64,000 bases of DNA, taken from positions 1 through 64,000 of the forward strand of contig NZ_SNWX01000008.1 of assembly GCF_004362045.1 (NCBI RefSeq), read 5' to 3'. Position numbers and translations under genes: made by a program. The notes under the pieces were generated by a model, which was given only the letters and a program-made list of their open reading frames with translations, had not been told where the DNA came from and searched no databases. This DNA is from Halanaerobium saccharolyticum (GTDB lineage Bacteria > Bacillota > Halanaerobiia > Halanaerobiales > Halanaerobiaceae). Shown one piece after another: positions 3,138-36,018 of the stretch; the first letter of the stretch is position 1; each line of letters starts with the position of its first letter.

Positions 3138-3991
3138 AAAAATTACTAACATTTTTAATGATAATTTTAGTTATCGTGCTGGCTTATAACTTATTTACTT
3201 TTACTGTTGATGAAACGAAAACGGCAGTTGTTAAACAATTTGGTGAGGTAGTAAAGATTTCTAAAGAGCCAGGGCTGCATTTTAAGATGCCCTTTGTGCA
3301 AAATATTATCTATCTTGAAGATAGAATTTTATCTTATGATATTGAACCACGAAAACTGATTACCTCTGATAAAAAACATCTGCTGGTTAATAACTATGCA
3401 CTCTGGAAGATTGATGACCCACTGGAATTTGTCCAGTCTATGAGTGGACAGCGTACACTTGCTCAAACCAGGATTGATGATATTGTTTATTCCAATCTCC
3501 GCAACAAACTGGCTTCAGAGACTTTTAATAATATAGTTTCCGAAAAAAGAATTGGTTATCTCAACTCAATAACTGAAAAGAGCAGGAAACAGTTAAAAGA
3601 TTATGGAATTCATTTAATAGATGTCAAAATTAAAAGAGCTGATTTACCTGAAGCTAACGAAGAAGCTGTTTACGAAAGAATGTCTTCAGAAAGAAAACAG
3701 AGAGCTAAACAAATAAGAGCTCAGGGTCAAAGAGAAGCTGAAATTATTAAAGCTGAGGCTGATAAAGAAGCTGAAATAATCGGTGCTCTGGCAGAAAAGA
3801 AAGCTCAGGAACTCAGGGGGCAGGGTGATGCTAAAGCACTGCAGGTTTATAGTGATGTCTACAGTCAGGATACGGAATTTTATAAATTCTGGCGCAGTCT
3901 GCAGTCCTATAAGAACTCTCTCAAAGAAAAAACGACTATCATTCTTTCCGAAGATATGGAATATCTAAAATATCTTAATCCTGCAAATTAA
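3134..3991 (+). CDS. hflC: HflC-like SPFH/band-7 membrane protein
   Basis: This 285-residue partner of HflK has an N-terminal membrane anchor (about residues 4-22), an SPFH domain (FTVDETKTAVVKQFGEV block) and a long charged Ala/Glu/Arg coiled coil near residues 180-235, followed by the conserved FYxFxRSLxxY segment. It overlaps hflK by 4 bp and is followed directly by a terminator, so hflK-hflC is a two-gene operon. No ftsH is in the window. Confidence 0.92.
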   Translation: MKKLLTFLMIILVIVLAYNLFTFTVDETKTAVVKQFGEVVKISKEPGLHFKMPFVQNIIYLEDRILSYDIEPRKLITSDKKHLLVNNYALWKIDDPLEFVQSMSGQRTLAQTRIDDIVYSNLRNKLASETFNNIVSEKRIGYLNSITEKSRKQLKDYGIHLIDVKIKRADLPEANEEAVYERMSSERKQRAKQIRAQGQREAEIIKAEADKEAEIIGALAEKKAQELRGQGDAKALQVYSDVYSQDTEFYKFWRSLQSYKNSLKEKTTIILSEDMEYLKYLNPAN

Positions 3992-4019
3992 ATAAGAATA
4001 AGTAATTTTCTATTTTATC

Positions 4020-4049
4020 GGCCCTTCTCTTTTTGAGGAGGGCTTTTAA
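4020..4049 (+). terminator. Terminator after hflC
   Basis: GCCCTTCTC pairs with GAGGAGGGC (one G-U) and is followed by TTTT. Near-identical hairpins recur after the genes ending at 12454 and 15689. Confidence 0.8.
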
Positions 4050-4063
4050 ATTATATTTAAAAA

Positions 4064-4072
4064 TGTTATGAT
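4064..4072 (+). promoter_or_regulatory. Extended -10 promoter for ilvE
   Basis: The sequence TGTTATGAT fits TGnTATAAT with one mismatch and lies 34 bp before the ilvE start codon. No good -35 is seen, as is normal for extended -10 promoters. Confidence 0.5.
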
Positions 4073-4105
4073 TAGGATAATATATTTAGTAGGGAGGAGC
4101 TAAAA

Positions 4106-5131
4106 ATGAGCAAGAAAAACTTGGACTGGGAAAACCTTGGTTTTGAATATTATGAGACAGAGAAGAGGTACATAGCAAATTATACAAATGGTGAGTGGGG
4201 TAAGGGAAAACTAATTTCGGATCCCAATGTAGTGATCAATGAGAGTGCAGCTGTCTTACAGTACTGTCAGCAGGTATTTGAAGGCTTAAAGGCTTATACC
4301 ACTAAAGATGGCAGTGTAGTAACCTTTAGACCGGATTTAAATGCAGAGCGGATGTTGGATTCAGCAGCGGGATTACAGATGCCGCCCTTTCCTAAAGAAA
4401 GATTTTTGGAAGCAGTTGATCAGGTAGTTGAAGCAAATCTGGACTGGGTGCCACCCTATGGAACAGGAGCTTCCCTTTATCTGCGGCCATTTATTTTTGG
4501 ATCTAAAGATGTGATTGCTATTAAACCGGCAGAAGAGTTTCAGTTTAGACTTTATGCAACTCCAGTTGGACCTTATTTTAAAGGCGGGGTAAATCCTCTT
4601 ACTCTTAGAGTCAGTAAATATGATCGAGCAGCTCCTCGCGGTACAGGCCATCTTAAAACCGGGCTAAATTATGCAATGAGTTTAAATACTACTGTAGAAG
4701 CTCACCAGGAGGGATATGATGAAAATCTATTTTTAGATGCTGCAACCAGAACCTATGTTGAAGAAAGTGGAGGAGCCAATATTATTTTCATTACCGAAGA
4801 TAATGAGCTGGTGACACCAAAATCAAGCTCAATTTTACCTTCAATAACTAAAAGATCTATTCTCTATCTGGCTGAAAATCATCTTGGTTTAAAAGTTACC
4901 GAAAGACCGGTAAAACTGGAGGAAGTAAAAAACTTTGCAGAGGCAGGTCTCTGTGGTACAGCAGCCGTAATTTCTCCTGTGGGTAAGATAGTTAAGGGAG
5001 AGGAAGAGATTGTTTTTCCCAGTGGAATGGATGATATGGGCCCAACAATTAAAAAATTATATGAGACTCTGACTCAGATGCAGCTGGGAGTTATTGATGC
5101 TCCAGAAGGCTGGATCAGAAAAATAAAATAA
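4106..5131 (+). CDS. ilvE: Branched-chain amino acid aminotransferase
   Basis: This 341-residue fold-type IV PLP enzyme transfers the amino group between glutamate and the branched-chain keto acids, the last step of Leu/Ile/Val synthesis or the first of their breakdown. Lys184 in GHLKTGLNYA is the expected PLP Schiff-base lysine. The EGLKAY and FRPxLNAxRM blocks are typical of the eukaryote-like/BCAT II branch. GGAGG precedes the ATG. The gene stands alone between terminators, without other ilv or leu genes nearby. Confidence 0.93.
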   Translation: MSKKNLDWENLGFEYYETEKRYIANYTNGEWGKGKLISDPNVVINESAAVLQYCQQVFEGLKAYTTKDGSVVTFRPDLNAERMLDSAAGLQMPPFPKERFLEAVDQVVEANLDWVPPYGTGASLYLRPFIFGSKDVIAIKPAEEFQFRLYATPVGPYFKGGVNPLTLRVSKYDRAAPRGTGHLKTGLNYAMSLNTTVEAHQEGYDENLFLDAATRTYVEESGGANIIFITEDNELVTPKSSSILPSITKRSILYLAENHLGLKVTERPVKLEEVKNFAEAGLCGTAAVISPVGKIVKGEEEIVFPSGMDDMGPTIKKLYETLTQMQLGVIDAPEGWIRKIK

Positions 5132-7356: not shown

Positions 7357-8601
7357 ATGAATAAATCGTTAAAAAAATCATATCTAATCTTTATCTGGCA
7401 TGGTTTCTTTTTAACCCTGACGATGTCGATGATAGATTTTAATACAGTTTTTCCTTCCCTGGTTTCAACTCTAATTGACTCTAAAATAATTTTTGGCCTT
7501 TTATATTCAATTATGCTTGGTGCACCTCGAATTTTTAATATTATTTTCAGCCATTATATGAATGCCTATGATTACCGCAAGAAATTTCTGCTGATTGGAA
7601 TTTACCTGAGGGCTTTTTCATTTTTGGGAATGGCTGCTTTTACCTATTATTTCGGCAGCAGTTCACCTAATATAGTTATTATTTCTTTCTTTTTCTGGGT
7701 GCTTGTTTTTTCAATCAGCGGTGGTTTTGCCAGCATATCCTATGGAGATATTATTGCCAAAACCGTTGGTAGAGAGGAGAGAGGTAAACTCTATGCCAGC
7801 AAACAATTTGCCGCCAGCCTGGCAGCTTTTATGGGAGGAATGGTAGTCCAGAACATATTTTCAGGTGATAAATTTGGCTTTCCTCTAAACTATTCTATAA
7901 CCTTATTTATTGGTTTTGTCGGCTTATTAATTGCAGCTTTTGCTTTTTGGATGATCAAGGAGCCTCCATCTGTCAATAAAGATGAGGATCTACTGTCACT
8001 TAAGGAATACATTAAAAAGGTGCCCGCTATTTTAAAAAAGGATAAGGATTTTGCCTCTTTTATTATCATCGAAAATATGGCGAGCTTCAGCCTGATGCTG
8101 CTGCCTTTTTATATAGTTTATGCTCAGGACAGCTTTGGTATTGGAACTGATTACATCGGCAGATATCTTTTATTCCAGATTGCAGGGACTATAGTTTCCA
8201 ATCTGCTCTGGGGCTACATCTCTGACAAATTAAATTCGCAGGCGGTAGTCCGAATCTGTATTTTGGGAGGAGCTGTAATCCCTATTATTGCTCTGCTGCT
8301 CAGCAATTTTGGACCTGAAACTTATTCAATGATTTTCTTTTTAATTGGATTTTTAATCAGCGGCCGCAAGGTTGGGTTTGAGCCATATCTCTTAGAAATT
8401 GCACCAGATGACAGAAGAACAGTCTATTTGGGAATCAGGGGAACTTTAAACTTTTTAGTTGTCCTGCTGCCTTTAATGGGAGGAATATTTATTGACTTTT
8501 TTGGCTATTTATTCACATTTATCCTTGTTTCTGTAGTAATGTCTGCAGCTTATTACCTCCTCAGGCGGAAGAGCATCAGGCAGGAGATAAGGTGCCGGTA
8601 G
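7357..8601 (+). CDS. MFS transporter
   Basis: This integral membrane protein of 414 residues has about 12 hydrophobic segments, with an N-terminal half ending in a charged cytoplasmic loop (residues 200-230) and a C-terminal half. The substrate cannot be inferred. The ATG at 7357 is chosen because GAGGAG at 7343-7348 is 8 nt away; a TTG at 7351 is also in frame. The last few residues (after LLRRKSIRQE) overlap the broken solute-binding protein gene, and the natural C-terminus may have been lost in the same rearrangement. Confidence 0.85.
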   Translation: MNKSLKKSYLIFIWHGFFLTLTMSMIDFNTVFPSLVSTLIDSKIIFGLLYSIMLGAPRIFNIIFSHYMNAYDYRKKFLLIGIYLRAFSFLGMAAFTYYFGSSSPNIVIISFFFWVLVFSISGGFASISYGDIIAKTVGREERGKLYASKQFAASLAAFMGGMVVQNIFSGDKFGFPLNYSITLFIGFVGLLIAAFAFWMIKEPPSVNKDEDLLSLKEYIKKVPAILKKDKDFASFIIIENMASFSLMLLPFYIVYAQDSFGIGTDYIGRYLLFQIAGTIVSNLLWGYISDKLNSQAVVRICILGGAVIPIIALLLSNFGPETYSMIFFLIGFLISGRKVGFEPYLLEIAPDDRRTVYLGIRGTLNFLVVLLPLMGGIFIDFFGYLFTFILVSVVMSAAYYLLRRKSIRQEIRCR

Positions 8602-9485
8602 TAATTCAGTCTGCAACTCCAGTTGTCTATCCAATCATCATGAAGCTTTTGAAATCAAAAGATCTGATGGATAAAATTGAAATTAAGGAATTAAAAATGT
8701 GGGATAAGGCTGAAAAACACATGAGCTGGCTGATGAACGGGAAGGCAGATATTACTTTTTCAGCAGTTGTAGCAGCAGCCAAATTGTACCTCAACGGCAT
8801 CGATTTGAAAATGAAGTCGGTCAATGTCTGGGACAACTTTTATCTTCTAACCAGAGGCTATCAGACTGAGACTTTTGGGGATTTAAAGGGACACACCATC
8901 CATGTACCGCTGGCTAAGGGAACTCCTCCTTTTGGAGTTACTAAATATTTAATGAAGAAAAAGGGATATAATCCTGATGATTTTGATTTTGCCTTTGGAC
9001 AGCCTTTCGGCCGGCCGGAGGAATTGAAGGCTGACTTTGTGCGGGGGAAAATTGATACTGTGCTCCTGAGAGAGCCGGAGGCAAGTTTTGCCCTCAACGA
9101 AGCCGAAGATGCTGTAGTTTCTATAGCCTATAAGGATCTCTGGCAGGAAATTCATCCAGATGCTGGGAAACTGCCAAATGCCGGGCTGGTATTTAAAGGA
9201 GAATTTGCTGATCAGCACCCAGCGATAGTAGAGCTCTTTATGAGAGAAATTGAAAAGGCAATTAAAGAAATTAATGATGATCCTAAAAAATCAGTTGAGG
9301 AAAGCTTTGACATAATGGGGTAGACTCCGGAAGCTGTAGAAAAGTTTTTAGAGCGGGTTGACTTTGATTTTAAATCAGGACTTAAAGACTCGGAGCAGAT
9401 TATTTACTATCTTAAAGTACTGGCTGAAGAAGGTTCATTTAAAGCAAAGGGTGAGCTTTCAGATTTAAAAGAGATGTTTAGATAA
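8592..9485 (+). pseudogene. Broken ABC transporter solute-binding protein (NitT/TauT-like)
   Basis: The frame encodes a type 2 periplasmic binding protein fold (QSATPVVYPIIMK, ADITFSAV, then DLKGHTIHVPLAKGTPP and EPEASFAL blocks). Two defects are seen. First, no signal peptide or ribosome site precedes the GTG at 8592, which overlaps the MFS gene; the upstream frame is not leader-like. Second, a TAG at 9321-9323 interrupts it, yet the same frame continues with TPEAVEKFLERVDF and ends at a TAA at 9483. One CAG-to-TAG change would explain the stop. No permease or ATPase genes are nearby. If translated it would make an untargeted 243-residue fragment. Confidence 0.8.
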
Positions 9486-9524
9486 AATTATCTAGCTGAA
9501 GTTTAACAATATATAATAATTTTT

Positions 9525-9564
9525 GTCCCCTGTGGCCTCTTGTGCTCTGCAGGGGAGTTTTATT
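9525..9564 (+). terminator. Terminator after the broken SBP gene
   Basis: TCCCCTG pairs with CAGGGGA across a 17-nt loop and is followed by GTTTTATT. Confidence 0.6.
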
Positions 9565-9705
9565 AAAGGAAAAATCAATTTAGTGTATAATACTAATAAT
9601 AGTGATGTTAAAAATAATGAAAAGGCTTTTCAGCACAAAGAGACTTTTGTGGTCAATTTTGTTTACTAAAAATTATTTATATTTTAACTAATGAGGGGTG
9701 CTGTA

Positions 9706-10197
9706 ATGAAAGATTCAATGGAAAAATTATATAAAAAATCAATTGAAGTTTTAGATGAAAGAGGAGTAACTATTGAGGATATTGCAGAGCTGGTAAAGAA
9801 ACTGCAGGAGCCTTATAGCCCGGACATTAGTCTGGAAGAATGCATAGAAAATGTGGATCATGTTTTAAAAAAGAGAGAGGTGGCACATGCTATTTTAACC
9901 GGAGTGGCCATTGATCAGCTGGCAGAACAGAAAAAGCTGCCGGAGCCGATACAGAGTATTATCGATACTGATGAAGGACTTTACGGAATTGATGAGATTC
10001 TGCCGCTTTCAATTGTCAACCTCTACGGGACAATCGGCCTGACAAGTTACGGCTATCTTGATAAGGCAAAATCAGGAATAATAAAAGAGCTGGATACCAA
10101 AAAGGACGGGAAAGTTAATACTTTTTTAGATGATTTAGTAGCAGGTATTGCTTCCGCAGCAGCCAGCCGCTATGCTCACGGAGAGGGAACCGAATAA
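9706..10197 (+). CDS. YutG/PgpA-like phosphatidylglycerophosphatase A family protein
   Basis: The 163-residue protein matches the Firmicute YutG branch of the PgpA family, with the long conserved run around ECIENVDHVLKKREV, the DEGLYGIDEI block and the NTFLDDLVAGI block. PgpA enzymes dephosphorylate phosphatidylglycerophosphate, but YutG members are soluble and their substrate is less certain. The ATG at 9706 lies 5 nt after GAGGGGTG; an in-frame ATG at 9691 has no ribosome site. Confidence 0.85.
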   Translation: MKDSMEKLYKKSIEVLDERGVTIEDIAELVKKLQEPYSPDISLEECIENVDHVLKKREVAHAILTGVAIDQLAEQKKLPEPIQSIIDTDEGLYGIDEILPLSIVNLYGTIGLTSYGYLDKAKSGIIKELDTKKDGKVNTFLDDLVAGIASAAASRYAHGEGTE

Positions 10198-10240
10198 TAA
10201 TTTGAGGCTTTTTTAATAAAATAAAATGGGAGGTTTTATA

Positions 10241-11059
10241 ATGCACAACACTGAATTTATTGAGACCTTTGATGATCAGAAACTATTTTTACGTCGGGAT
10301 CTGGTTGATGATCCTCAGGCTGTAGTAATCATTGTTCACGGTTTAAATGAGCATCAGGGGAGATATGATTATTTTGCCGGCAGGTTGAATGGAGAGGGCT
10401 TTTCAGTTTACCGCTTTGATAATCGCGGCCACGGCAGATCCGATGGAGCCCAGTCCTATATTGAAGACTTTAATACCTATTTAGATGATGCGGACACGGT
10501 TTATGAGCTGGTCAAAAAGGAAAATCCTGAACTGCCAATCTTTATGCTCGGCCACAGCATGGGCGGATTTATTGCAGCCGGCTATGGGGTTAAATATCCC
10601 GATAAGCTGAATGGTCAGATCTTAAGTGCTGCAGCGACCAATGAACTTGAGGCCTTCAAAGAATTAGAAGAGCTGAGCCTGGAGGATAATCCAGAGATGA
10701 AGCTCCCCAATGAGCTGGGTAAATTTGTTTCCAGATCAGATTATGTAGTTGATGACTACGAAAAGGACCCCTATGTTTCTGAATTTACTACTTTAAAACT
10801 AATGAAGGTTGTCTTTATAGATCAAGGAATACCCTGGTTGGTTGATAATCTTAAACAGTACGAGTATCCGGTTTTAATTCTACACGGTGAGGGAGATAAG
10901 ATAGTTGATCCGAGCTGTTCCAAAAAATTCTATGATTTAATTGCTGCTGAGGATAAGAGCCTAAAGACTTATCCTGAACTCTACCACGAGATACTTAATT
11001 CAGAAGAAAAGGAAACAGTGATCAATGATATTTTAAACTGGCTGGAGGAGAGAGTTTAA
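10241..11059 (+). CDS. Alpha/beta hydrolase, monoacylglycerol lipase-like
   Basis: The 272-residue enzyme has the serine aminopeptidase S33/Hydrolase_4 pattern: oxyanion HGLNEHQGRYD, the FDNRGHGRSDG strand, nucleophile Ser106 in GHSMGG, an Asp in HGEGDKIVDP and a C-terminal His in LYHEIL. It has no signal peptide and probably hydrolyses lysophospholipids or monoacylglycerols in the cytoplasm. GGGAGG precedes the ATG at 10241. It follows the PgpA-like gene by 43 bp, which hints at a shared lipid theme. Confidence 0.88.
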   Translation: MHNTEFIETFDDQKLFLRRDLVDDPQAVVIIVHGLNEHQGRYDYFAGRLNGEGFSVYRFDNRGHGRSDGAQSYIEDFNTYLDDADTVYELVKKENPELPIFMLGHSMGGFIAAGYGVKYPDKLNGQILSAAATNELEAFKELEELSLEDNPEMKLPNELGKFVSRSDYVVDDYEKDPYVSEFTTLKLMKVVFIDQGIPWLVDNLKQYEYPVLILHGEGDKIVDPSCSKKFYDLIAAEDKSLKTYPELYHEILNSEEKETVINDILNWLEERV

Positions 11060-28887: not shown

Positions 28888-29772
28888 ATGAATAAAAAGC
28901 AAATTGAACTTATGAAAAATGGCAAAGGTTTTATTGCAGCTATGGATCAGAGTGGTGGAAGTACACCAGGAGCATTGGAAGATTACGGTATAACAGAGTC
29001 AGAATATGAGACAGAAGCAGAAATGTTTGAGCTTGTCCATGCAATGAGAACCAGAGTTATTACCAGTCCTTCTTTTAGTTCTGAACACATTTTGGGTGCA
29101 ATTTTGTTTAAGCATACGATGAATAATAAAATGGAAGGTAAATATACTGCTGATTATCTCTGGGAGGAAAAAGGAATTCTGCCAATACTCAAAGTGGATC
29201 AGGGCACAGAAAATAAAGAAAATGGAGTCCAGCTAATGAAGCCCATGACTAAACTGGATGACCTGCTTGCAGAGGCAGAAAAGTATAATATCTTTGGAAC
29301 CAAAATGAGATCAATTATTCACAGTGCCAATCCAGATGGTATTAAAGATATTGTGGCTCAGCAGTTTGAATATGCTAAAAAAATCTATGATGAAGGATTT
29401 ACACCTATTTTAGAACCAGAAGTAAATATAAACAGTAAAGATAAATTAGAATCCGAAATAATATTAAAAGAAGAAATTCTAAAACTGCTTCAGGGCTTAG
29501 ACGATGAGCAGTATATATTTAAACTCTCACTTCCAAGTCAGGCAGATTTCTATCAGGAAATTATTGAACATCCCAATGTAGTAAGGGTGGTCGCTTTATC
29601 TGGAGGTTACAGTCAGGAAGTTGCTGTAAATAAGCTTTCGGAAAACCATAATATGATTGCAAGTTTTTCGCGGGCACTGCTTCAGAATCTAGAGATTGAT
29701 CAATCAGAGGAAGAATTTGATAAAGAACTGAAAAATGCTGTAGTTAAGATTTATAATGCTTCCCTGACATAA
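28888..29772 (+). CDS. fda: Class I fructose-1,6-bisphosphate aldolase
   Basis: The 294-residue cytoplasmic enzyme cleaves fructose 1,6-bisphosphate into two triose phosphates. It matches the small bacterial class I type of Staphylococcus. Lys212 in FKLSLP is the expected Schiff-base lysine, and the [12 protein letters not shown] and EPEVNI blocks are conserved. With pfkB at 176 it gives two consecutive glycolytic steps in the window. A 26-bp palindrome and a weak GGGGT site lie upstream. Confidence 0.93.
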
Positions 29773-29837: not shown

Positions 29838-29864
29838 AATCCCGGCACTTATAATGCCGGGATT
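29838..29864 (+). terminator. Hairpin after aldolase
   Basis: AATCCCGGCA pairs perfectly with TGCCGGGATT around a 7-nt loop. The T-tract after it is poor (AATTATAT), so termination efficiency is uncertain. Confidence 0.65.
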
Positions 29865-29928
29865 AATTATATAATTATATTGCAGGAAAAAAAATTACAG
29901 GATTGATAAGTAGTAAAATAAAGGATCA

Positions 29929-31440
29929 GTGGGATTGGTATTAATTCCAGGTCCAGGCCTTAATCCCAAACATTTAAAATATGGGGAAGAAAATTTAATT
30001 TTAGAAGGATCGATAGACCACAGAGGTAAGGAAGTAAAGTCAGTTTCTGCTCAAAAAATTAAAGATGGTCTGGCCCGGTTTAAAGAGGAGAAGATAACTT
30101 TAGGCCATCAAATATCAGGTAATTTAAATTATCACCGACGAATATTAACAGCCTATTACAATACTGCAGTCAGCAGTGTTCATCAAAATTTTATAAATTC
30201 TATCGAAACTTCTCTTAAGGAGAGGGATATAGAGGCTGAACTTTATCTGCTTAAATCTGATGGAGGAACTGCTGCTTTAGAAAACTCACGAAAAATTCCA
30301 ATTGAAACAGTTAACTCCGGTCCTGCAGCCAGTATTATGGGCAGCCTGCTTTTAAATCAAAGTTCTGAAACAGGAATTGCCCTGGATATTGAAGGAATAG
30401 TAGAATATAATCCTGAAATTGTGACAGACAGAGAGATTAAAAGGGCTCATATCTGTGTACCAGATGTTGACAGTGTGGCCTCTGAACCTCATAAAATTTC
30501 TGCAGGAGGAGCTGTCAAAGCGGCAGACCTAGTTTTAGAAGGAATTGTTGATAAAGGTTTTGCGCTTGTTCGACCACCGGGCCACCACGCCCACAGGGTT
30601 GTTCATGACCCCAATGTGCTTCATATTTCTCTGCATCAGGATGGCGGAACTCTCTTTCCCGGCTCAGGTTTTGTCAATGAATTTGGAGGACCGACAGCCT
30701 ATGCCAGAACTTTAAATATACCACTACCTCCAGGAACATTTGATCAGGGTCTGCTCTATGTGATTAATGATTTTGTATTACCAGTTTTAAATGATTTTCA
30801 GCCTGATTTAGTTATTAATGCAGCAGGACAGGACAATCATTACTTTGATCCCCTGACCAATATGAATATTTCAGCCAGGGGTTATGCAGAAATGAATGAG
30901 CTATTGGATCCAGATCTATCTATACTGCAGGGAGGTTATTCAATAGAAAGTGCACTTCCCTATATCAATGTTGGTTTAATACTGGCTGTGGCCGGACTTG
31001 ATTACAGTTTTGTAGAGGAACCTGATTATGATCCAGACCTTTTAAAAGAAGATCCGAGTCTGACCTCTGAGATAAAGGAGACTGTGGCTCAGTTAAAGAA
31101 GATCTGGGAAAGTAGAGAAAGCAGAGATCTAAAAGAAGTCTATGGTGATTTTTCTAAATTTTACAGCAGAGAAAAAAACATCTTTTATGACACAGCAGGG
31201 ATCAATGAAAGCCAGACCGAAAAAGTTAGAGTTTGTCCTGACTGTCAGGGCTATCCAATTATTGAATCAAAGGCAGCTAAAAGTCGGTTTAGCAGCAGTC
31301 AGGTTATGGCTGTTTCTATTCCTAAACTGGTCTGTGATCACTGTCATCAGGAAGCCAGAGAAAAATATGAAGGATTAAAAAAGGAGCACGATCACGTTTA
31401 TCTGCAGGATTTAAAAGAAGATGAGTATCTCAGTAGCTAG
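29929..31440 (+). pseudogene. Chimera of a hydantoinase fragment and a gutted histone-deacetylase-like gene
   Basis: One open frame of 503 codons joins two families. Residues 1-153 resemble the middle of a hydantoinase/oxoprolinase A subunit (SDGG, ETVNSGPAASIMG, ALDIEG). From about 158 on it is an HDAC/acetoin-utilisation-type protein (CVPDVDSV, LVRPPGHHAHRVVH, AGQDNHYFDP, LQGGYSIE) with a CxxC-CxxC zinc tail. Between His226 and Asp227 (30606/30607) about 45 residues with the DxDxHHGxGT metal and catalytic segment are missing, and the N-termini of both parents are absent. The GTG has no ribosome site. It is probably non-functional. Confidence 0.8.
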
Positions 31441-31500: not shown

Positions 31501-32052
31501 ATGAATTATTATCAGAAAATATTAGATAAGTTAAAAGAATATCAAGCCCAAAGTATATCTGAAAAGAAATCGAAAAAGAAAATTATACACTTTATTCTCA
31601 ACAATCAGAAAAACATTGGTAGAGAAAATTCTGCAGGCCATCTAACTGCTTCAGCCTGGATAGTAAATAATGAACGGAATAAAGTTTTGTTACACCAGCA
31701 TCTTTCTTTAAATAAGTGGATTCAGCTCGGAGGCCATCTTGAAGCAGACGAAACTGTTAAGGAAGCTGCCTTAAGAGAGGCCAGAGAGGAATCAGGTTTA
31801 GAATCTCTTTCATTTTTGTATAATAATATTTTTGATATTGATCATCATCTAATACCCGCAAATAATAATCAGGCTGAGCATTTTCATTATGATATTAGAT
31901 ATCTATTAGAGGCAGATAGTAAAGAAGAATTAGAAAAAAGCAGGGAGTCTGTCAATCTAAAGTGGCTTCAGTTAAATGAGGTCGAAAAATATGTTAGTGA
32001 GGAATCTGTTCTGAGAATGCTAAGGAAAACTAAAGAATATAAGGAGGGTTAA
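31501..32052 (+). CDS. Nudix hydrolase
   Basis: The 183-residue cytoplasmic hydrolase cleaves nucleoside diphosphates linked to another moiety. The full Nudix box GX5EX7REUXEEXGU spans G78 to L100. Substrate is not predictable; the FHYDIRYLLEA block resembles sugar-nucleotide or NADH-type relatives. GGAGG precedes the ATG. The MTH1187 gene starts 2 bp after the stop, and together they begin a long co-oriented run. Confidence 0.9.
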   Translation: MNYYQKILDKLKEYQAQSISEKKSKKKIIHFILNNQKNIGRENSAGHLTASAWIVNNERNKVLLHQHLSLNKWIQLGGHLEADETVKEAALREAREESGLESLSFLYNNIFDIDHHLIPANNNQAEHFHYDIRYLLEADSKEELEKSRESVNLKWLQLNEVEKYVSEESVLRMLRKTKEYKEG

Positions 32053-35187: not shown

Positions 35188-36018
35188 ATGAAAACTATTT
35201 TAGTTACTGGTGCAACTGATGGAATTGGTAGAGAAACAGCAAAAGAGTTAGCTGAAAAGGGCCACAGGATTATCATCCACGGCCGCAGTGAAAACAAAGC
35301 CTGGAAGGTTAAAGAAGAGCTAAATAAAATTAATTCTGAGGTTGAGCACAAAATAGCTATTGCTGATCTGGAGTCCCAGCAGCAGGTTTTAGATTTAAGT
35401 ACTCAACTGAAAGAAGAAGAGGATAAAATTGATGTTTTGATTAATAATGCAGGGATATATCAAAATCAGCTTGAATTTAGTGAAGATAAGATCGAAAAAA
35501 CTATAGCAGTTAATTATCATTCCCATTTTGTCTTAACCCTACTTTTATTACCTTTATTAGAAAAGTCAGATGATCCACGGATAATTAATTTTTCCTCTAT
35601 GGTTCATGCTCATAATTTAGATACAGATAAAATCTGGGACCCTATTAATTTCAACGGCAGTCAGGCTTATTCTGATTCTAAACTGGCAATGATTTTATTT
35701 ACCTTTAAGTTAGATAGAATAGTAAATGGAATCACAGTTAACTGCCTTCATCCAGGAGTTATCAATACTAAGCTGCTGCGTCAGGGCTGGGGAGCAGGTG
35801 GTTCTTCTGTAGAAAAAGGAGCAGTAACTCCGGTATATTTGGCACTTTCTGATGAGGTAAAAGGAGAAAGTGGTGGCTATTTTGTCAATAAGAATAAAAA
35901 GAAACCAACAGAAGCAGCTTTTAAGCAGGAACTGCAGGACCAATTATGGAATAAAAGTATTGAGATGATAAAATATCAGGAAATTTTAAATAAGATTCCT
36001 GATCAATTTTTGAATTAA
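35188..36018 (+). CDS. SDR oxidoreductase, retinol dehydrogenase-like
   Basis: The 276-residue short-chain dehydrogenase has the TGATDGIG nucleotide loop, NNAG, catalytic Ser in NFSSMVH and YSDSK (Tyr/Lys). The layout resembles the RDH/WWOX-like classical SDRs; the HGRSE segment after beta-2 suggests NADP(H). The substrate is unknown. AGTGAGGTGA precedes the ATG. Confidence 0.88.
   Translation: MKTILVTGATDGIGRETAKELAEKGHRIIIHGRSENKAWKVKEELNKINSEVEHKIAIADLESQQQVLDLSTQLKEEEDKIDVLINNAGIYQNQLEFSEDKIEKTIAVNYHSHFVLTLLLLPLLEKSDDPRIINFSSMVHAHNLDTDKIWDPINFNGSQAYSDSKLAMILFTFKLDRIVNGITVNCLHPGVINTKLLRQGWGAGGSSVEKGAVTPVYLALSDEVKGESGGYFVNKNKKKPTEAAFKQELQDQLWNKSIEMIKYQEILNKIPDQFLN

Follow-up and report, generated by a model that had tools for sequence, protein, structure and literature searches.

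Can an open reading frame that runs uninterrupted through pieces of two enzymes, and that lacks the catalytic metal site of one of them, be a working protein, or is it what remains of two dying genes? This question is raised by a locus within the 64,000-nucleotide stretch of Halanaerobium saccharolyticum DNA analysed here (the window). The frame opens within a hydantoinase/oxoprolinase-like gene (HyuA), terminates in a histone-deacetylase-like (HDAC) gene and contains no internal stops:

29929..31440, + strand: fused HyuA-HDAC ORF, 503 codons with a GTG start, from the reading frame and Pfam
29929..30390, + strand: HyuA-derived part, about residues 1-154, from alignment to the hyuA gene of genome G008 (locus L031, 8113-8683)
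30391..31437, + strand: HDAC-derived part, residues 155-503
29920..29925, + strand: AAAGGA, read directly from the sequence, a possible ribosome-binding site

The putative ribosome-binding site lies 3 nt from the GTG at 29929 and 9 nt from an in-frame TTG at 29935. In Pfam, Hydantoinase_A matches residues 71-195 (E 8e-15), a partial match (profile positions 1-129 of 291) that overruns the true junction, and Hist_deacetyl has its best stretch at residues 225-341 (E 1.3e-34); Hydant_A_N has no match in the fused ORF. The original prediction of one chimeric HyuA-HDAC frame of 503 codons is thus confirmed by the ORF, Pfam and the alignment to G008. The fused ORF is the sole copy in its own genome (3.36 Mb, 79 contigs), where no second, intact copy of the pair was found. 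In a protein search, 42 of 61 related genomes gave a match, and the window genome alone matched the whole query in one piece; in the others the segments match separately or belong to one of the two genes.

The intact form of these genes is found in a member of the same genus. In G008 (L031), a 582-aa HyuA with Hydant_A_N and Hydantoinase_A (7873-9621) overlaps by four bases a 446-aa HDAC with Hist_deacetyl (9618-10958). The gene order and families are those of the fused ORF, whose retained HDAC segments are 81-82% identical in protein to G008. For a broader comparison, the best 80 of at least 546 relatives (named loci L043-L122) were fetched with the HDAC alignment. Compared with the intact operon in L031 and these named loci, the window copy is without the N-termini of both HyuA and HDAC, 34 internal codons of HyuA, all HyuA beyond the junction and the zinc-site core. 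On alignment, both the core D[TS]DxHHxDG[TS] and AGQD are present in all 80 named HDACs, including five GS variants that evade a simple core-motif pattern.

DNA alignment to L031 resolves these differences into four lesions, namely a 5' loss, a HyuA deletion, a fusing deletion and an HDAC deletion. At the 5' end, homology starts only at codon 81 of intact hyuA (L031 8113), so that about the first 80 codons are gone; at the other end of the HyuA part, everything past ALDI is missing. The other three are internal:

30093..30094, + strand: junction J1, a 34-codon (102 nt) deletion within the HyuA part, FKEEK|ITLGH, residues 55/56
30382..30397, + strand: junction J2, a 1094-nt deletion joining hyuA to HDAC at about residue 154
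30603..30607, + strand: junction J3, a deletion of 138 nt (46 codons) in the zinc-site core, residues 226/227 (His226/Asp227)

J1 is placed by neighbouring HSPs to L031 8113-8258 and 8375-8683. At J2, which shifts from the hyuA frame into the HDAC frame, two HSPs overlap by 16 nt at an imperfect repeat, GATAT-G-AGG. J3 removes GARGF ... DTDAHHADGT ... FYH, and its pattern had no match in viral contigs. All three junctions are in frame, and the fused ORF contains neither a stop nor a small frameshift. Only two deletions had been predicted, and these correspond to the fusing and core deletions; the loss of 34 codons within HyuA and the truncated 5' end had been missed. For the core deletion, the predicted absence of the metal site between His226 and Asp227 is evident in both Pfam and the G008 alignment, and the proposed CAT-G microhomology is present as a 5-nt HSP overlap, TCATG, at 30603-30607. 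The DxDxHH segment is lost as predicted, with an exact size of 46 codons in place of about 45 residues.

These lesions bear on whether a product could be active. The HDAC-derived part retains PPGHH219-220, AGQD302, GGY337 and the C-terminal CxxC pairs. By analogy with bacterial HDAC homologues, DxDxH and AGxD presumably supply the zinc ligands and the His pair and Tyr are catalytic. Measured against a classical zinc-dependent deacylase (HDAC), the fused ORF has H219, H220, D302 and Y337 and has lost DTDAHH; PDB matches of the intact HDAC protein to HDAC6 and bacterial amidohydrolases span the deleted segment. Measured against a HyuA hydantoinase/oxoprolinase, it has no Hydant_A_N and a partial Hydantoinase_A, and the missing N-terminus includes GGTHTD, which we take to be a nucleotide motif. 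Any product would be expected to be inactive as either HDAC or HyuA, since it would lack two of the three expected zinc ligands as well as the nucleotide-site motif at the HyuA N-terminus. Intact orthologues in relatives, and a window copy without parts needed for their function, are what is expected of a pseudogene.

The pair is absent or nearly absent from most of the genus. Across 38 genomes of the order, eight carry a full-length HDAC that aligns over nearly the whole query, two a truncated one (the window genome, G000, and G015), three only a distant relative (32-39% identity) and 25 none, the last including G033, whose HyuA match lies at the edge of a contig. Among the 12 genomes of the genus there are two intact copies (G008 and G011), the window copy and nine without an orthologue found; two of these nine are only 75 and 83% complete, and G010, with a 33% relative only, is counted among them. 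The genes around the locus allow the site to be compared with G003, the closest relative found by flanking DNA (89-94% identity in four matches, and 79% over the NUDIX and thiamine-binding genes):

28888..29772, + strand: upstream neighbour, presumably aldolase-like, 93% identical in G003 and the same anchor in G008
29838..29864, no strand assigned: hairpin of 12 pairs between the aldolase-like gene and the fused ORF, also in G003
31501..32052, + strand: NUDIX gene, downstream neighbour

In G003 the aldolase-like gene and hairpin are followed by 116 nt and then the NUDIX gene. Within the 116 nt, 19 of 20 positions match the HDAC 3' end at the expected place and read KEDEYFKR-stop. In a shuffle test, 0 of 1000 shuffles reached its score of 35, with the best at 34, which is marginal alone; the position is what persuades, and the segment is probably a trace of the HDAC 3' end, the only part of the pair separating these two neighbours. 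A protein search of L123-L127 (G003, G005, G009, G004 and G002) for remnants of the pair gave nothing better than E 0.3. Near-total loss in G003, and no orthologue in eight further members of the genus, point to dispensability.

A second fusion is found in G015, from a different family of the order (L034 6254-7114, minus strand), where the start of hyuA is missing and HyuA is joined in frame to the last ~133 HDAC residues. Like the window copy, it unites a 5'-truncated HyuA with a C-terminal part of HDAC in frame; it differs in its breakpoints, in the family that carries it and in how little of HDAC is left. Judged by its sequence, G015 shows that the HyuA-HDAC operon can apparently decay more than once.

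How genes erode in this genus can be gauged from a control gene that is intact in the window:

35188..36018, + strand: short-chain dehydrogenase (SDR) gene

The window, G008 and G002 have the complete SDR gene; internal deletions are found in G003 (one; L123 4434-5067), in G004 (two; L126 9249-9675) and in both G005 copies (one each; L124 16063-16195 and 18787-19420). From alignment coordinates, these deletions measure 317, 165, 152, 318 and 593 nt. Two of the five are in frame, and frame-indifferent deletion is therefore a usual decay route in the genus. Pooling the five SDR junctions with that of G015 and the window's three, which were chosen for their open frame, gives six of nine in frame against three expected.

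Codon evolution was modelled with our own script on a fixed topology from a FastTree run (494 shared codons, nine sequences), with dS near or above 1 being imprecise. Relaxed selection on the window branch was not detected in this model, with a dN/dS of 0.076 against a background of 0.070 (2 delta lnL 0.08; dS ~0.65) and a likelihood profile that excludes values above about 0.135. Violations of invariant columns likewise show no clear excess, with 8 of 180 in the window, 4 of 176 in G008 and 8 of 180 in each of the intact G011 and G017. For dating, the window branch was modelled as a constrained stretch that ends in a neutral one. The best neutral length was the lowest value tried, 0.0002 per site, with an upper bound of about 0.025 substitutions per site (2 delta lnL 2.41 at 0.020 and 4.26 at 0.027). 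The simulated probability of zero stops is 0.28-0.18 at 0.02-0.03 substitutions per site, or about 0.2 at the bound. Four flanking genes have a window-to-G003 dS of 0.23-0.57; the NUDIX (2.09) and thiamine-binding (1.04) values lie far from these four and were left out of the dating. Given the neutral bound of ~0.025, the collapse, if neutral, therefore postdates the split from G003, and G003 would therefore have lost its own copy separately. This dating would not hold for a chimera under selection. The retained codons fit decay younger than ~0.025 neutral substitutions per site and continued selection alike.

The locus is well explained as a young deletion-fused operon remnant, and we put the probability that it is a very recent deletion-fused pseudogene of the HyuA-HDAC operon at roughly 0.86. 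We infer an ancestral pair with the four-base overlap of hyuA and HDAC seen in G008, and a succession of losses from it that would have taken the 5' end, 102 nt within hyuA, 1094 nt from hyuA into HDAC, fusing the two, and 138 nt of the HDAC active-site core. Because short repeats (≤16 nt, imperfect) lie at the junctions, slippage or microhomology-mediated deletion may have produced them. The original prediction called the single frame unexpected for random decay, and this claim keeps little of its force. Three in-frame junctions would have a chance of 1/27, but the long frame was the reason for choosing this case, SDR erosion left two of five junctions in frame, and zero stops would be no surprise for decay as recent as neutrality demands in the codon model. 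The open frame would then reflect chance together with that choice. Against decay stand the absent dN/dS rise, the lack of stops and the in-frame joining at all three junctions and in G015; the unraised dN/dS and open frame would be expected of a selected chimera too.

Such a chimera, for instance a binding or regulatory protein that kept the HDAC fold and CxxC pairs and discarded catalysis, would also account for the AAAGGA upstream of usable start codons, and G015 likewise joins an N-terminal part of HyuA to a C-terminal part of HDAC in frame. However, the closest relative has only the probable 20-nt trace at this site, G015 has breakpoints not common to the window and has lost its own 5' end, and, if the decay model holds, the low dN/dS was established before the deletions and hence says little about the chimera. 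The codon data do not separate the two readings; decay is favoured because catalytic parts are lost, relatives have lost the genes and orthologues of the chimera are lacking, which makes a functional chimera kept by selection unlikely. Very unlikely is the more specific idea of a newborn non-catalytic protein, its frame kept by selection, with G015 as a parallel fusion pointing to a recurrent advantage of this combination; G015 is the sole observation that keeps it alive. If true, a selected chimera would give a rare view of a new protein at its birth. An artefact of assembly or sequencing that collapsed an intact operon might be suspected in a draft genome of 79 contigs, but assemblers do not usually err by making four separate lesions whose overlaps are ≤16 nt, the locus is internal to a contig of 106,922 bases, the genome has no second intact copy, and similar SDR deletions occur in three other assemblies, making this explanation highly improbable. 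Distant orthologues with the same missing core, which the original prediction held would mark a true non-catalytic family, were looked for and found in none of the 80 named relatives, a result that also weighs against the selected chimera. No named locus has a core gap of more than 3 residues, and the eight full-length copies in the order cover almost all of the HDAC query. A conserved non-catalytic HDAC-like family is rejected within the collections searched and is barely credible.

Read as decay, the locus offers a snapshot of gene death by internal deletion, with the operon intact in G008, half-collapsed in the window and nearly vanished in G003, all in the same aldolase-like neighbourhood. 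It also urges caution, as two Pfam domains in one long open frame can belong to a remnant. A literature search found no report of this HyuA-HDAC fusion. In work on Rickettsia that describes deletion-eroded pseudogenes (PMC2374718), these are, as in the window, gene remnants that vary among species; the window differs in belonging to another order, in having all junctions in frame and in fusing two genes.

The surroundings of the locus and of the intact pair provide further observations. The NUDIX gene (31501-32052) has a dS of 2.1 to its positional counterpart in G003, against 0.2-0.6 in most neighbours, and transfer may have replaced it in one lineage. In anaerobes from Clostridia to Deltaproteobacteria, HyuA and a classical HDAC stand together as a tightly conserved pair of genes, with HyuA ≤530 bases upstream of HDAC in 73 of the 80 named loci. 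HyuA is unmatched in L057, L085, L089, L094, L106, L110 and L113, and the fetched DNA of L057, L089, L094 and L106 starts ≤360 bases from HDAC. None of the papers found in a literature search on the pair mentions hydantoinase, and the joint function of the two genes looks uncharacterised. An ORF family that we take from its sequence to be EpmA-like (EF-P lysine ligase) occurs in 15 of 86 loci with the pair, in L085 just downstream of HDAC (3241-4164). Genes that are presumably mutS-, mutL-, miaA- and miaB-like lie near the pair in other loci, and a gene we assume to be nicotinate phosphoribosyltransferase-like lies directly upstream of hyuA in G031 (L035), G033 (L038) and G028 (L039).
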